DNA of 64,000 bases. It comes from Clostridium sp. (GTDB lineage Bacteria; Bacillota; Clostridia; Clostridiales; Clostridiaceae). Position numbers and translations under genes: made by a program. The stretch is taken from NCBI RefSeq assembly GCF_022482905.1, contig NZ_JAKVOI010000001.1:2667958-2731957 (forward strand), in the 5' to 3' direction. Of the stretch, positions 5,739 to 41,103 are shown one piece after another. The notes beneath the pieces were generated by a model. It saw nothing but the letters and a program-made list of their open reading frames with translations. It was not told the origin of the DNA and made no database searches. Positions within the stretch are counted from its first letter, which is position 1. Every line of letters starts with the position of its first letter.

Positions 5739-6671
5739 ATGAAAGTTGACAGGCTTGTTAGCATTATTATGATACTCCTTGATAAAGAGCGTATAGGCGC
5801 ACAGGAGTTAGCAGATATGTTCGAAGTTTCACCCCGCACAATCTACCGCGACATAGACACTATAAACATGGCGGGTATTCCTGTTCGCGGGGCACCGGGA
5901 GTGGGCGGCGGCTTTGAAATCATGCAGAAATACAAGATTGATAGAAAGGTTTTTTCGACTGCCGACCTTTCCGCTATCTTGATGGGGCTTTCCAGTCTTT
6001 CTAACATGATACGAGGTGATGAACTGGTAAACGCCCTTGCGAAAGTCAAAAGTTTTATCCCCGCCGATAGAGCGAAAGACATTGAATTAAAAGCAAATCA
6101 AATATATATAGATTTAAGTCCGTGGATGGGCAACAGGAACATACAACCATATTTAGGAATTATCAAAACAGCTTTACAGGAAAGTAAGCTACTGACCTTT
6201 GAATATACAGACCGCTACGGAAATAAAACCGCACGAACAGCCGAGCCGTATCAGCTTGTATTGAAAAGTAGTCATTGGTATTGGCAAGGGTATTGCCATA
6301 AAAGAAATGATTTTCGCTTATTCAAACTATCCCGCACATCAAACCTACAAATACAAGAGGAATTTTTTACGCCACGAGATTATCAAAAACCGCAGTTAGA
6401 TTTTACTGATATTTTGACAACTATGCAAATAAAAATCAAAATTCGTATTCATAAATCTGTCATGGACAGGGTACTTGATTATTGCACTTATGAACACTTT
6501 TTGCCAGACGGTGATGAGCATTACATTGTTAGTTTTCCTTTCATAGAGAACGAATACTACTACAATATTCTTTTCAGTTTTGGGGATAAATGCGAGTGTT
6601 TAGAGCCGTTACATATCCGCACAGAAATGAAGCGTAGAATACATGATATAGCTACCTTATACGAAAACTAG
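5739..6671 (+). CDS. WYL-domain transcriptional regulator (YafY/DeoR-like)
   Basis: A 310-residue regulator: N-terminal winged helix-turn-helix (LADMFEVSPRTIYRDIDTINM, about residues 18-40) and a C-terminal WYL domain with LTFEYTDRYGN and LKSSHWYWQGYC, thought to bind a small ligand or nucleic acid. The ATG at 5739 follows AAAGGCGG; an earlier in-frame ATG at 5721 lies before that site. It is divergent from the isochorismatase-like gene and probably regulates it or itself. A second WYL regulator of the same architecture is at 27,400-28,335. Confidence 0.9.
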   Translation: MKVDRLVSIIMILLDKERIGAQELADMFEVSPRTIYRDIDTINMAGIPVRGAPGVGGGFEIMQKYKIDRKVFSTADLSAILMGLSSLSNMIRGDELVNALAKVKSFIPADRAKDIELKANQIYIDLSPWMGNRNIQPYLGIIKTALQESKLLTFEYTDRYGNKTARTAEPYQLVLKSSHWYWQGYCHKRNDFRLFKLSRTSNLQIQEEFFTPRDYQKPQLDFTDILTTMQIKIKIRIHKSVMDRVLDYCTYEHFLPDGDEHYIVSFPFIENEYYYNILFSFGDKCECLEPLHIRTEMKRRIHDIATLYEN

Positions 6672-6819
6672 AACTTTGTTTTGCTATCAAGAATGCTTGA
6701 AAAAGCAGATATTGATAAGCCTTTAACCATTCATCAACTTAGATTAGACATACTTTTGCCAGCAGAGCATTGATAGTCTTCACCTTTCATATTTATTCTT
6801 TGAACTTTGATATTTTGTA

Positions 6820-7965
6820 TTAGTCGAATACCTTATCGTACTGGGAATCAAAATTAACAGGGGCATTTGTCTCCAGATAAAAGTTCACATTTGCATAATT
6901 TGGATTAAATAAAAATGGCCTTTTGCAGTTTCCTTTGGATCCCCGGTTGCAGTAATAGTTGCGTCGAAATTACCACCGCCGTTTTGTTTGTCAAAATTAC
7001 CACTGAAATTCAGTTTCTTATTTCCGTCTTCATAGCCGCTTATATATTTTGTTTCGTAAATTCCGCTTATGGTACTGTTATCTATTTTTTCAATAGTCAC
7101 CGTGGCCTCACCTATTTTTATAAACTTTCCATCTTTTTCAATTGTTATATTCTGGACGTATTTTCCAAGGTATTTTTCAGGGTTGGACAATTTGTCCGGG
7201 TTCGAGGAGTTGGCGGTCTGCACTATTGTTTTTTTACCTGAAAGATCAGGTTTTTTAACTGCAGTTGAGTTAATGTCATCTATTTTCAGCAGCAGTTCAA
7301 AGGTCAAATTGTGATTTTGATTGTTTTTATCGGTACCTGAAAGAACTCCTGATCCAAGTACGGTTTTGATCAACCCGTTCTTGTCTGTGGTGACAGTTCC
7401 CTTGATATTTTTTACAAATATATTGTCCGCGAGTCTGGGAACATTGAATCTGCCATCAGTTTTTTCTTCTCCGGAGGAACTGACAGCAGCATTTCCTCCA
7501 AATAAATTTTTGAATTGAAAGGATACCAGTGCATTTATAAGTGATGGTACCTGGGTGTTGTTCAAGGATCCCGAAAGCTCCCTGGATCCATCCTGCTTTA
7601 CATTGACTGCAACGGAATCTTTTAGATTTCCCACAATGGCATCTGCTATCTTTTCAAAATCGGAAGCCCTGTCTTCATCAAAAGGATTTGCCATATTCCA
7701 GTTTGTGCCGTTTGTAAAATTAGTTACGGAATAAGAGGAAGATTTTTGGGGCTTATTTATTATGGTATTTTTGTCTATATAGTAATAGCTTTCAGCTTTC
7801 TTTGAGCCGTTGTAAATTGTATTTGTATCCTCCTTTGACTTATTCGATATATCGTATTTGGACAGATCACTGCTGGAATACACCACATTGGTGCCGTCCT
7901 TTATGACAAAGGATGTGTCTACGGTATAGTTTGAAAGTTCACCGGTGCAGGCTCTTATCAGTGAT
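6820..7965 (-). pseudogene. Remnant of a large secreted or lipoprotein-like protein of unknown function
   Basis: The frame encodes a Ser/Asn/Lys-rich, beta-strand-like extracellular protein, with repeated short strand patterns such as ITIEKDGKFIKIGEATVTIEK. I do not recognise the family. It is broken at both ends. Upstream the frame stays open past the first usable codon (7886) to about 7965 without a start or signal peptide, reaching only RACTGELSNYTVD before the terminator of ablB. Near 6905-6915 a one-base loss in GGCCATTTTT shifts the frame; the true C-terminus continues as NPNYANVNFYLETNAPV and ends at TAA 6820-6822. Confidence 0.65.
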
Positions 7966-7974
7966 ATTTTGTAT

Positions 7975-8019
7975 TGTAAAAAATAAGCAGAGAAAATTTT
8001 TGGCTTTTCTCTGCTTATT
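7975..8019 (-). terminator. Terminator of the kamA-ablB operon
   Basis: A 15-bp stem (AATAAGCAGAGAAAA at 7982-7996 pairing with 8005-8019) with an 8-base loop is followed on the minus strand by a run of T. It lies 35 bases beyond the ablB stop codon. Confidence 0.85.
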
Positions 8020-8054
8020 GAACAGTTAAGTATCTACACATTGTCCTGTAAATT

Positions 8055-8915
8055 TCAGATATTATTGATGTTTTTTACCCAAATATTCATGTTCTCGAAA
8101 CCACCGCATATATTGCAATTATTTATAAGTTTTCCTCTGAATGTATAGCCTTGCTTGCTGAGTACAAGATTAATACTAGGATGGATTGCTCTGGACAGAC
8201 TATATAGGGTTATAAATCCCATTTTCTTAAGCTCCAATTCCAGGGAATAGATTATATTAGACAGTATGCCTTTATTCCTATAATGTGGATGAGTGACACA
8301 GTCGGTTATTTCTGCATTCAAATTTTCTCTATCCAGATCTGCTGAAGCTATGCCGATTATTCTGCTGTCATTGTCCACAGCTACCTTATATAGGACTTTT
8401 TTATTCAAAGTGTTTCTCAGATAATCTTCATTGAAAATTTCAGAGGGATAAGTGGAAAATATCTGGGAAAATAATTTTATCATATTCTTTATATCACTTT
8501 CCGCTGCATTTCTTATGTGGTAGTTGAAATTGCTGCTTTTATAGATAAAAGTGTCCTTCTTATTCAAGCTCTGTCTTAAAATCAGGTCCTCTTTAGAATG
8601 TTCACTATAGAGTCTTCTGTTTTTGTTGATGAAATAGGACATACAAAATGCATCCTTACCTTTAAAATAGCCATCTATTTTACCTTCCAATTCAAAACCT
8701 GCCTTAGTAAAATTATCCAGATATTCAATATCACAGTTGCATATGATTTTTCCAAGACGCTGTCTTGAAACAAAATGAATAAGTCTTTTTATATTTTGAA
8801 CTGACATAGTGTAAAATTTGATTATTTTTACACGACTGTTGGTGTAGTCCACACATATTTTATCCTTATCTATTTTGATATAATAATTATTTAGCTGACA
8901 ACTGCTTGCACTCAT
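8055..8915 (-). CDS. ablB: Beta-lysine N6-acetyltransferase
   Basis: A 286-residue GNAT-family enzyme that acetylates L-beta-lysine from acetyl-CoA to give N-epsilon-acetyl-beta-lysine, a compatible solute. The GNAT fold is in the C-terminal half: IIGIASADLDRENLNAEITD, then the acetyl-CoA loop HPHYRNKGILSNII and a terminal SKQGYTFRGKL. The N-terminal ~110 residues are the family-specific extension. The ATG at 8915 with GGAGAAG upstream lies inside the end of kamA (29-base overlap), so the pair is translated together. The assignment rests on the fold and on the kamA partner, a hallmark pairing of this pathway. Confidence 0.88.
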   Translation of the reverse strand: MSASSCQLNNYYIKIDKDKICVDYTNSRVKIIKFYTMSVQNIKRLIHFVSRQRLGKIICNCDIEYLDNFTKAGFELEGKIDGYFKGKDAFCMSYFINKNRRLYSEHSKEDLILRQSLNKKDTFIYKSSNFNYHIRNAAESDIKNMIKLFSQIFSTYPSEIFNEDYLRNTLNKKVLYKVAVDNDSRIIGIASADLDRENLNAEITDCVTHPHYRNKGILSNIIYSLELELKKMGFITLYSLSRAIHPSINLVLSKQGYTFRGKLINNCNICGGFENMNIWVKNINNI

Positions 8916-10173
8916 TATATTGTCTTCTCCTTTCCATTCTTGCATTATTGCTGGGAGTCAAACATACTCTCTCATTTCTAAACAATTTTTCCAGGCCTTC
9001 ACGTTTAGTCTTCTTAAATTTTTGACATAGTCCACAATGTTTGCAGTGGTGGCTTTTATCGGATGGCTCAGTATAAGTACACAATACACCCTCATAGTTT
9101 CTGAGTATTAATTTTTCAGGTGTCTGTGAGATCAAATACTGGGGACCTACAGGTATTTTTCCACCGCCGCCTGGAGCGTCAATCACAAAAGTGGGTACTG
9201 CAAATCCAGAGGTATGACCGCGTAAAAGCTCCATGATTTCTATGCCGGTTGAAACTGATGTTCTAAAATGTTCAATACCCTGGGATAGATCACATTGATA
9301 TATATAATAAGGTCTTATTCTGTTTTTTACTAATTTCTGTACAAGATTTCTCATAATATAAGGACAGTCATTGATATTTTTTAAAAGTACTGATTGATTT
9401 CCAAGGGGAATTCCTGAATCAACAAGCATCTTGCAGGCCAGCATTGATTCTTCGGTTACCTCGTTTGGATGGTTAAAATGTGTGTTAATCCAAACCGGAT
9501 GATATTTTTTTATCATTCTGCACAAACTGCTGGTTATTCTCTGAGGCATGACAACTGGTACTCTGGTTCCAATTCTTATGACTTCAACGTGATCTATCTT
9601 TTTTATCTCCTTTAATATAAATTCAAGCTTCTCATCTGAAATACACAGTGCATCACCGCCGGATATCAATACATCTCTAACTTCGCTGTGAGCTTTTACA
9701 TATTCTATAGCTCTTAATATATCATTGTTTGATAGAGAATTATCATCGTGCCCTGCAAACCGCCTTCTTGTGCAGTGTCTGCAGTACATAGAACATTTTT
9801 CAGTAACAAGGATGAGTACTCTGTCAGGATATCTGTGGGTTAATCCGGGAACGGGAGAATCGAGAGTTTCATGCAGTGGGTCATTTATATCACATTCTGA
9901 TATTTTGGTCTCTTCTATGGTGGGAATCGCTTGTCTTCTAATAGGACAATTATAGTCATCCGGATCAATCAATGTTGCATAATAAGGTGTTATTGCCATC
10001 CTTAGCTTTTTAAGACTAGCTTTTACTCCATTTCTTTCGTCTTCAGTAAGATTTACTACCTGTTCCAGTTCCTCCAATGTGGTAAGTCTGTTAGAAATCT
10101 GCCATTTCCAACTGTTCCATTCATCTTTTGTGACGTCTTTCCATAGTGGTATATTCCAGTATTTTCTTCTCAA
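8887..10173 (-). CDS. kamA: Lysine 2,3-aminomutase (radical SAM, PLP)
   Basis: Converts L-lysine to L-beta-lysine. About 428 residues, the usual length. The radical SAM cluster motif CSMYCRHC is at residues 127-134, the PLP lysine in PGGGGKIPVG is near residue 339, and a C-terminal zinc site is suggested by CKHCGLC. The start is probably the TTG at 10173, with AAAAGGAG 7 bases before it; the GTG at 10182 abuts that site. Downstream ablB overlaps, so the beta-lysine is most likely acetylated to an osmolyte rather than fermented; no other lysine fermentation genes are near. A c-di-AMP riboswitch and terminator lie in the leader. Confidence 0.95.
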   Translation of the reverse strand: MRRKYWNIPLWKDVTKDEWNSWKWQISNRLTTLEELEQVVNLTEDERNGVKASLKKLRMAITPYYATLIDPDDYNCPIRRQAIPTIEETKISECDINDPLHETLDSPVPGLTHRYPDRVLILVTEKCSMYCRHCTRRRFAGHDDNSLSNNDILRAIEYVKAHSEVRDVLISGGDALCISDEKLEFILKEIKKIDHVEVIRIGTRVPVVMPQRITSSLCRMIKKYHPVWINTHFNHPNEVTEESMLACKMLVDSGIPLGNQSVLLKNINDCPYIMRNLVQKLVKNRIRPYYIYQCDLSQGIEHFRTSVSTGIEIMELLRGHTSGFAVPTFVIDAPGGGGKIPVGPQYLISQTPEKLILRNYEGVLCTYTEPSDKSHHCKHCGLCQKFKKTKREGLEKLFRNERVCLTPSNNARMERRRQYNECKQLSAK

Positions 10174-10246
10174 ACCAAACACTCCTTTTAAAAGTTAACA
10201 ATATAATATAAAGAATTATTTGTGCTACATGGAAGCTGCTGGATAA

Positions 10247-10284
10247 TCAAAAAACAATAAGCTGCAGAGAAGTCTCCGCAGCTT
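10247..10284 (-). terminator. Intrinsic terminator in the kamA leader (riboswitch expression platform)
   Basis: On the minus strand AAGCTGCGGAGA pairs with TCTCTGCAGCTT (12 potential pairs, one G-U; 10259-10284) and is followed by a T-rich tract (10247-10257). It lies between the aptamer (10350-10455) and the kamA start, about 75 bases before the gene, as expected for a transcription-terminating riboswitch. Confidence 0.85.
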
Positions 10285-10339
10285 ATAAAGCCATAATTCA
10301 AAGGTATATCAAAAAATACAAATTCGTGTATACCAAAAA

Positions 10340-10455
10340 CTTCCCTTCAACGCTTACGAGATTAGCTGACGGATTCGGATCGAAGAAATTAACCCTACCT
10401 GCCTACAGCAGGATTCACCCCAAAATTGGTTTTCCCGTTCAAATTGATTAAGCGC
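10340..10455 (-). promoter_or_regulatory. c-di-AMP riboswitch (ydaO-yuaA class)
   Basis: On the minus strand the conserved blocks of this class appear in order: CGCTTAATC, GGGAAAACCAA, TTTTGGGGTGAATCC, GGTAGGGTTAA, CGAATCCGTCAGCTAATC and CGTAAGCG followed by GAAGGGA. The terminal CGCTTA/TAAGCG pairing forms P1. Known members bind c-di-AMP and switch expression off. Here the target is kamA-ablB, so high c-di-AMP should repress osmolyte synthesis. Recognised from motif memory; a covariance model search would confirm it. Confidence 0.88.
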
Positions 10456-10546
10456 TAGTAACATTGTAACATTTTTCACATTTATTGTTATACACATAAT
10501 CATAACACTTTAACATATACATGTCAAATGCACAAATATCCAAACA

Positions 10547-12029
10547 CACGGCAAAAGCATGAACCCATCTCCTTCCAAAATTCTCTTACAAGAATTTTTT
10601 AAAAAATACCTTTGCAGTATTTATATATGAGATATGCCATATTTCCCCTGAAATATACTCTGGTATTACTGTGAGCTGGTGTAAGAAGCGGGCCAGAGCT
10701 TAGACCTTTACTCATTTAAAAGAAAACCTCATTCGAAACCGGATAGTCCTTGATGGATATATCCAGTCTATAAATTTGTACTCTTTTTAAATTTTCTTAC
10801 ATATGTCTAAAATTTATGAATAATATATATTCAAGATATTCCAGACTAAGCAATGCCTGAAACCTTCTGGATTTCAAGCTTTTCTTAGGATATCTTTCTT
10901 CATCTTTTTTTACTAAGTTAAGAGCAATTCTTTTTAGTAGTCCAATGTTTTGCGGTTTGTTTCCTGTTCTGTTCCTATTTTCATCTTCTCTAAAAGTTAC
11001 ATCCAGGTTCCAATGGGTGCTCTCAATTCCCCAATGTTTTCTTGCTGCTTGTGAGAAATCTTTTACATCCTTGATACTTCCCAGATAGTATCTACACTCC
11101 TCTGTCTTTCTGCCATTTTCTTCACACTTTCTAAATAACCATACCTATGCCATTTAATTTTCTCCACTCATTTTTAGCTTCCATCCATGATATATCAGTA
11201 GAATAGTAAAAGATTCTTTCTTCAATTCTGCCATGGGATTTTTACATAGTGCGGCAGCACTCAATTTTTTCATCCTTTACCTTCTCTCGTTTCACATCTT
11301 TGAAATATTCTTCTACCTCATTGTATAAAACCTTGTGGTTTTCTTTAAGTGCCAGGACATAGTCTGCTTTATTGTTTCTTACAATCTTTTCTGCAATATC
11401 TTTCTGGCATCCCATTGCATCAATTGTAACAATACTGCCCTTTATTAACAGCATATCAAGTAATTCAGGTATTGCAGTAATTTCATTGCTTTTTTCATCT
11501 GTCTTTACCTGCCCTATAATAAGTTTGTTACTGCTGCCCATGCACTTTTACTATATGAACTGCCTTTTTATTATTCCTTTTGTTTTCTGTTCCCCGCATT
11601 GTTTTTCCGTCGATTGCTATTATCGTGTTATTCTCAATCTCTGTTACTTCTCTCATCCAGAGCACAAAACATCTTTCAAACTGTTTGGGATCTATTAAAT
11701 TTAATACTCTTTCAATTGTATGATGTGTTGGTATGCCGTTTGGCAGTTCAAGGTACTTCCTTAGCCAATCCTCTCTTTTAATTGCCCAGGCTTCAATGTC
11801 CTCCCAATCATTGCAGCTGCATATTGTCGCTGCAACTGCAATAAAAATGATATCTATAAGCTTATGCCTAACTTTACCTTCCTGTCTTATATCATAGATT
11901 ACACTAAAATGCTCAAAAAAGCTTCCCTTATATTTTTTTACTACCATATTCAATAACCTTCATAACAGGACTTTAATTTTTAGTGGTAATTTATTCATTG
12001 GACAATCATTCCTTCATGCTTTTGCCGTG
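10547..12029. mobile_element. Decayed ISAs1-family insertion sequence with 17-bp terminal inverted repeats
   Basis: CACGGCAAAAGCATGAA at 10547-10563 is repeated perfectly inverted at 12013-12029, bounding 1,483 bases that contain a broken ISAs1-type transposase on the minus strand. I see no clear target-site duplication. The left flank inside the element (10564-10796, about 230 bases) is longer than the right (60 bases) and holds no gene; it contains a GATGGATATATCC palindrome but nothing else I can name. The element sits directly upstream of the kamA leader. Confidence 0.8.
10797..11953 (-). pseudogene. ISAs1-family transposase, multiply frameshifted
   Basis: A DDE transposase in at least three frames. 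The first part (11528-11953) has HHTIERVLNLIDPKQFER and IIAIDGKTMRGTE, holding the first catalytic Asp. The second (11242-11541) has [18 protein letters not shown] and [11 protein letters not shown] with the second Asp. The third (about 10797-11150) has ARKHWGIESTHWNLDVTFRE with the catalytic Glu region and ends at TAA 10797-10799. Joins lie near 11535 and between about 11130 and 11245. All DDE blocks are recognisable, so the element died fairly recently. Confidence 0.88.
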
Positions 12030-39847: not shown

Positions 39848-40759
39848 TTAACTATATAATCCCATTGATAGATATTTTTCTCCTCCATCAGGTGCTACTG
39901 TAACTACAGCTTTTCCACTTCCAAGTTCCTTGGCTACCTGCAGTGCAGCATATACATTGGCTCCGGAAGATATTCCTACCAGAATTCCTTCTTCTTTTGC
40001 CACAATTCTTGCATACTTGAAGGCATCTTCATCGGTTACAGTTATTATTTTATCAATTAATTCAGGCTTATATATATCAGGTACAAAACCTGCTCCGATT
40101 CCCTGTATTTTATGCGGTCCTGTCTGCCCTCCGGAAAGCACTGGCGAATTTGCCGGTTCAACTGATATTACTTCTATATTTTTGTCATGTTTTTTTAAAT
40201 TCTCTCCTACTCCTATAACTGTACCACCAGTTCCAACACCTGCAACAAATGCATCCACCTTATCAAGATCCTTAAGTATTTCTTCTGCAGTTGTTTCATA
40301 ATGTTTCTGTGGATTGGCAATATTTACAAATTGCTGTGGTATATAGAATCCTGGCTTATCCTTTGCTATCTCATAAGCTTTCTCTATGGCACCTTTCATT
40401 CCCTTTGTTCCATCAGTGAGAACCAACTCTGCGCCATAGGCCTTTATGGTATTTCTTCTTTCAATACTCATGGTCTCAGGCATTACTATTATAACTTTAT
40501 ATCCCTTCAATTTTCCTATCATGGCAAGAGCTATACCGGTATTCCCGCTTGTAGGCTCAACTATGGTATCACCTTTTTTCAACAAGTTTTCCCTTTCAGC
40601 TCTTTCAATCATTCCAAGTGCGGCTCTGTCCTTTATGCTTCCACCGGGATTGAACTTCTCAAGCTTTAGATACACATCTGCTGCCCCTTCTATTTTGAGA
40701 TTATTTAATTTCAATAATGGCGTACTTCCAATCAAGTCTATAGCATTTTCAAATATCAT
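39848..40759 (-). CDS. cysK: Cysteine synthase (O-acetylserine sulfhydrylase)
   Basis: A 303-residue PLP enzyme producing cysteine from O-acetylserine and sulfide. The PLP Lys is K43 in [11 protein letters not shown]; substrate loop [12 protein letters not shown], phosphate-binding [12 protein letters not shown] and GISSGANV are intact. ATG at 40759 follows AGGAGG. A T-box leader with a TGC specifier precedes it, so transcription should rise when tRNA-Cys is uncharged; cysE follows. Confidence 0.96.
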
Positions 40760-41103
40760 TTATAGTCCTCCTAATATAAAAATTAATATTTTAAAATAGA
40801 TTTTCAGCATATCAAAAAGCTTCATCTCTATGACATTCATATAGAGACGAAGCTCAAACTCCGCGGTTCCACTCTCATTGGACAAATAGTCCCAACTTAA
40901 TCAAGCACCTTGTTAATGCTCAATCACTATAACGGGTGAACCCGATGCAGCCTACTGTTATTTCAGTACACGACTCAAAAGGGCACTTCATTTAAAGTAA
41001 ATTTAGAAATCTCCCAGCATAAAATTTCCTCTCTTAAAAATTTGCCTTCAAATTACTTTCCTTTTTCAATGTCTTTTCAGTTTCATAGTATTTTATATTT
41101 ACA
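40760..41103 (-). promoter_or_regulatory. T-box leader (cysteine) controlling cysK-cysE
   Basis: On the minus strand the T-box core AGTGGAACCGCGG (rc of 40861-40873) precedes a strong terminator (40818-40854, AGCTTCGTCTCTATATG pairing with CATAGAGATGAAGCT, then T run). Upstream, AGTGCCC near 40981-40988 offers TGC as specifier codon, consistent with cysteine. The long leader explains the gene-free stretch 40,760-41,150. Confidence 0.93.

Follow-up and report, generated by a model that had tools for sequence, protein, structure and literature searches.

Transcription of the kamA-ablB gene pair of a Clostridium sp. (GCF_022482905.1) is very probably controlled by a cyclic di-adenosine monophosphate (c-di-AMP) riboswitch, which would act as an OFF switch on the synthesis of N-epsilon-acetyl-beta-lysine. 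The pair and its leader lie on the minus strand of the stretch analysed here (the window), 64,000 nucleotides of contig NZ_JAKVOI010000001.1 from 2,667,958 to 2,731,957, and coordinates are those of the window unless a locus or genome is named. A sequence-only reading of this DNA had placed a ydaO-yuaA aptamer and a strong terminator ahead of kamA and had named both genes, and all of these assignments held up.

An Rfam covariance search of the whole window gives a match to the c-di-AMP (ydaO/yuaA) family RF00379 at 10464-10336 (minus), which covers the model over its full length (1-134 of 134). Its score is 98.7 bits (gathering score 38), and the E-value of 3.5e-22 rules out a match by chance. 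This is the only c-di-AMP aptamer among the three Rfam matches in the window, and the genome has just one more. In two close relatives, L074 and L072, the homologous leader reaches 98.7 and 95.9 bits, respectively. Between aptamer and gene lies an intrinsic terminator (10286-10257, minus; -19.8 kcal/mol) with 13 pairs, six of them G-C, and a loop of four nucleotides, followed by the U-rich tail TGTTTTTT. Across 26 related leaders its nine core pairs are standard in 233 of 234 cells, and three of the pairs show changes on both sides.

Upstream of the aptamer is a promoter-like site, TTGACA-17-TATGAT (10527-10499, minus), with a TG ahead of the second hexamer. It matches the consensus at 11 of 12 positions and is the best among 15 sites listed in 8000-11000; since shuffled sequence yields a mean of 12.5 sites at the 9-of-12 threshold, only its strength and place speak for function. 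With this site the whole unit extends from about 10527 to 8055. The earlier bounds of 8055..10455 thus had the right locus but fell short at the upper end, as the aptamer itself starts at 10464. A permissive search of 10150-11250 returned the c-di-AMP aptamer and one chance-level match; no Na+ aptamer (RF03071) was found there up to an E-value of 5, so a hidden Na+ aptamer 5' of the c-di-AMP aptamer was rejected and the leader is taken as single-aptamer. The one RF03071 match of the genome is located elsewhere, ahead of a Na+/H+ exchanger gene. Farther upstream of the kamA promoter is an ISAs1-family transposase gene (10800-11953, minus; scanned piece 11528-11953), apparently in pieces.

The first gene, kamA (ablA), occupies 10173-8887 (minus) and encodes a lysine 2,3-aminomutase of 428 residues. 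Its start is most likely the TTG at 10173, a few bases past AAAAGGAG at 10189-10182. KamA passes the AblA model TIGR03820 with 619 bits (curated cut-off 525) and falls below the cut-offs of the sister models for glutamate aminomutase (496 bits, cut-off 650) and arginine aminomutase (414 bits, cut-off 600). Residues 9-416 align with the solved L-lysine 2,3-aminomutase 2a5h (E-value 9.1e-175), and both CSMYCRHC and DAPGGGGK are conserved in that alignment; we take these to be the radical S-adenosylmethionine (SAM) CxxxCxxC motif and the loop of the pyridoxal phosphate (PLP) lysine, respectively. Overlapping the end of kamA is ablB (8915-8055, minus), encoding a putative beta-lysine N-acetyltransferase of 286 residues that scores 250 bits against TIGR03827 (cut-off 205). 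The nearest of nine named AblB relatives found, with 97% identity, is that of Clostridium luticellarii.

Proposed switching mechanism

When K+ and turgor are sufficient, c-di-AMP would be high and bind the nascent leader, stabilising both the aptamer and P1, the helix that closes it; the terminator at 10286-10257 would then form and the genes would be off. Under osmotic stress c-di-AMP would fall, the 3' edge of the aptamer could pair with the terminator loop and 3' arm, and RNA polymerase would read through, so that KamA and AblB could turn lysine into the compatible solute N-epsilon-acetyl-beta-lysine. That ligand promotes termination in this leader is inferred from the c-di-AMP-dependent termination in vitro that White et al. 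2022 (PMC9337991) describe for the ablA leader of Dehalobacter sp. CF.

The proposed antiterminator joins 10352-10333 (minus), comprising the edge of P1 and the 3' tail of the aptamer, to the terminator loop and its flanks at 10279-10260, with a calculated duplex energy of -21.1 kcal/mol. This duplex takes up the terminator loop and 3' arm together with 10351-10348, bases common to a predicted 9-bp P1. For this duplex (leader L076) only 2 of 200 shuffles are as strong, and a strong alternative duplex is present in 25 of the 26 family leaders (matched by six or fewer of 200 shuffles each). When the terminator 3' arm is left out of the fold, 10342-10335 pair with 10277-10270 and P1 is still formed.

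Several observations weigh against this scheme. The L057 leader has no good terminator by scan, and the duplex fails in L080, where 36 of 200 shuffles are as strong. Leaders of other families reach six or fewer of 200 shuffles in only two of ten cases, and a general claim for the antiterminator outside the Clostridiaceae was dropped. The antiterminator is put forward from duplex calculations against mononucleotide shuffles within one homologous leader family; its columns are near-invariant, so covariation is no proof of it. The fold of the whole leader gains only a little stability over shuffled sequence (z -1.45), and the fold minus the terminator 3' arm is less stable than shuffled sequence (z +1.26). 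Switching may instead depend on pairing between the aptamer core and the terminator's left arm, as PMC9337991 describes for Dehalobacter, although a five-base counterpart of that pairing (CAGCU/AGCUG) occurs in only 18 of the 26 leaders.

Alternative explanations and known systems

Lysine fermentation in some clostridia uses a KamA of this family, and the present genome carries the gene cluster for it, so that the aptamer and terminator could be real and yet control catabolism. We consider this highly improbable. The fermentation cluster has its own KamA, the second of the genome, beside kal, kce, kdd, kamB, kamC and the lysine 5,6-aminomutase alpha gene, whereas the window KamA overlaps ablB, and we know of no role for AblB in lysine fermentation. 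Because of this separate copy and of the overlap with ablB, the window KamA is best read as the osmolyte copy. The least probable of the alternatives is a non-responding aptamer left beside kamA, which the upstream transposase gene in its apparent pieces might suggest; the aptamer matches the full model at 98.7 bits, similar scores are retained in L074 and L072, and both the promoter-like site and the terminator are intact.

The direction of switching is not readable from the aptamer alone, and an ON switch or an action on translation would be compatible with it. The other c-di-AMP aptamer of the genome (G000:C1:3223578-3223710; locus L086 2579-2711, minus) lies ahead of a gene for a cell wall hydrolase (PF07486); it ends, right before that gene, in GGAGAGG, which may be a ribosome site. 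An ON or translational switch on kamA nevertheless appears very unlikely, given the terminator with its U-rich tail between aptamer and gene and the increased termination with c-di-AMP that the pertinent section of PMC9337991 gives for the Dehalobacter leader. The preferred reading is an OFF switch on transcription. The genome encodes two proteins with a c-di-AMP synthase domain, and the L086 aptamer adjoins the c-di-AMP synthase gene cdaA, back to back on the opposite strand; by coordinates, six relatives (G094, G095, G096, G100, G131 and G135) have an aptamer at a comparably short distance from a synthase gene. Elsewhere in the window, a T-box leader (40840-41078, minus; 115.7 bits) lies ahead of a PLP-dependent PALP-family gene (39848-40759).

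KamA and AblB together make N-epsilon-acetyl-beta-lysine in the yodP-kamA system of Bacillus subtilis and the ablAB system of methanogens, and the window pair resembles both; to our knowledge neither of these carries a c-di-AMP riboswitch. The same riboswitch class reportedly stands on kdpFABC in Bacillus thuringiensis (PMC6488665), likewise an osmotic-balance operon, although there it controls K+ uptake and here it would control solute synthesis. The earlier description of the solute as better known from methanogens needs care, since PMC9337991 cites this type of solute in bacteria as well.

The association of c-di-AMP with ablA is already in print in that paper, and the window is a stand-alone, single-aptamer case of the same kind. 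The two share the c-di-AMP aptamer, ablA and the osmolyte logic, but the Dehalobacter RNA is a tandem in which a Na+ aptamer that has a terminator of its own comes before the c-di-AMP aptamer, and the window leader has no Na+ aptamer in 10150-11250. The targets of Na+ riboswitches that the relevant passage names are dapB, ablA and eam, and a section of a later tandem-riboswitch paper (PMC9481103) counts six Na+/c-di-AMP tandems. In the open-licence literature, PMC9337991 was the only paper found to link c-di-AMP (or ydaO) to beta-lysine, to an aminomutase or to beta-glutamate.

Riboswitch-ablB loci in the Clostridiaceae

We surveyed 206 genomes of the Clostridiaceae, of which 32 encode AblB over the cut-off, in 42 copies; all 42 and one truncated copy were analysed. 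The sequence-only reading had proposed a survey of other clostridial kamA-ablB leaders, and its outcome agrees with that reading: RF00379 lies upstream on the same strand at 25 of the 42 full ablB genes, and also at the truncated copy. In a tree of the 42 AblB proteins (midpoint root only) a well-supported branch of 26 holds all of the riboswitch-linked copies, 25 of its 26 members, as against 0 of 16 in the rest. At L081, the sole member of the branch lacking a riboswitch, no RF00379 match was found up to an E-value of 5, and a degenerate riboswitch was rejected there, the only matches being to other families and far below gathering scores.

Four arrangements account for the 25 loci. Riboswitch-dapB-kamA-ablB occurs at seven, including L054 with a broken dapB and transporter genes in between; riboswitch-kamA-ablB at four, the window among them, with kamA in two pieces in L061; riboswitch-dapB-ablB at two; and riboswitch-ablB alone at twelve. 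The gene dapB is thus part of nine operons. Nine genomes have an intact riboswitch-linked dapB (G003, G005, G008, G030, G032, G050, G069, G100 and G141), and all but G100 have another dapB over the cut-off elsewhere. The riboswitch-linked dapB is therefore mostly an extra copy, which fits a supply of lysine for the solute. An association of Na+/c-di-AMP tandems with dapB is already in print in PMC9337991, where the passage mentioning it ties dapB to lysine and peptidoglycan; here, by contrast, dapB stands in operons with kamA-ablB, which fits lysine made for the solute. In G096 a further c-di-AMP aptamer abuts dapB by coordinates (G096:C2:209424-210321, minus), away from the ablB locus, and at L057 group II intron matches (5995-6821) lie between the c-di-AMP aptamer and dapB-kamA-ablB.

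Na+ aptamers (RF03071) are present in 6 of the 26 riboswitch-ablB loci (L057, L060, L071, L079, L082 and L085) versus 0 of the 17 others. All six sit outside the c-di-AMP leader, and the neighbours scanned are NhaA (L057 and L060) and a CPA2 antiporter (L079). Beside the riboswitch-dapB-kamA-ablB operon of L069 is a gene for a ClC-type chloride transporter of 528 residues (7775-9361) with a C-terminal match to TrkA models; TrkA-type domains bind c-di-AMP in other proteins. Open reading frames of 526-530 residues, known by position and size, occur in similar places at seven more loci.

KamA-less loci and the wider phylum

AblA-type KamA is missing from 11 of the 23 genomes that have a riboswitch-linked full AblB. 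Seven have no TIGR03820 match up to an E-value of 0.001, three have weak matches only (9.7e-8 to 4.9e-4), and G032 retains a short relic. In a twelfth genome, G096, kamA is fragmented. Fragments of kamA separate dapB from ablB at L068 and from the truncated ablB at L085, and L077 contains a fragment of dapB. Mapped on the AblB tree, the KamA-less state requires at least two changes, in either direction, on well-supported branches, and five at best fit. The ratio of nonsynonymous to synonymous rates (dN/dS) of AblB is 0.05-0.18 in nine pairs around KamA-less genomes, of which five are rough (dS > 1) and one compares a KamA-less with a KamA-bearing genome, and 0.15-0.20 in four KamA-bearing pairs; AblB of the KamA-less genomes thus looks to be under constraint. 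Only column 137 (L076 numbering, partly gapped) has no residue common to the KamA-less and KamA-bearing riboswitch-linked copies, and this was taken as noise.

These patterns suggest that some species lost the first enzyme of the pathway yet kept the switch. With the switch retained, AblB apparently constrained and the first enzyme missing, another AblB substrate is suggested, for which alpha-lysine is the simplest guess and another diamine the alternative. Beta-lysine may instead be imported, an unrelated aminomutase may be present, or assembly gaps may hide kamA. In the open-licence literature no report was found of a family-wide association between riboswitch and ablB, of operons that combine dapB, kamA and ablB, or of AblB without KamA under this riboswitch, the last of these not having been searched by name.

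In a wider phylum sample of 398 genomes, AblB occurs in 62 including the window, and the counts that follow are from the other 61; stricter filters were used in this riboswitch search, with loss of weak matches. Of 71 ablB genes, 14 (in 13 of the 61 genomes) have a riboswitch no more than 6 kb upstream. Of the 115 riboswitches, 35 stand ahead of ablB or of one of the 53 KamA-family positions entered. In contrast to the KamA-less Clostridiaceae, every one of these 61 genomes with AblB has a KamA-family match whose E-value is no higher than 1e-40, and in 58 the match passes the AblA cut-off. Thirteen riboswitches are within 500 bases of a KamA-family gene of 439-477 bits, and all five of these genes scanned pass the glutamate 2,3-aminomutase cut-off. 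Eight riboswitches lie ahead of a gene for a KamA-like protein of about 600 residues; the three scanned, directly 3' of c-di-AMP aptamers (L091 2059-3918, L092 546-2372 and L097 507-2303), are radical SAM proteins that pass the general KamA family cut-off only. At L096 a riboswitch lies ahead of dapB.

Taken jointly, these data allow a tentative picture, which we hold as plausible though short of probable. Riboswitch-controlled osmolyte operons of clostridia would be eroding from a riboswitch-dapB-kamA-ablB form, with kamA and dapB each lost in several lineages. In a single step, still switched by c-di-AMP, the leftover AblB would produce N-epsilon-acetyl-alpha-lysine or a different acetylated diamine. 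Across the phylum, the riboswitch would govern a broader beta-amino-acid osmolyte programme that includes glutamate 2,3-aminomutase and the uncharacterised KamA-like protein of about 600 residues.

The kamA-ablB leader is thus a further case in which the second messenger of K+ and turgor appears to switch the synthesis of an organic solute and not transport alone, and it lacks the Na+ aptamer of the published Dehalobacter example. The survey extends one tested example to a pattern seen within one bacterial family. A question of enzymology also becomes testable, namely which substrate AblB uses in species that have the riboswitch and ablB but not kamA.
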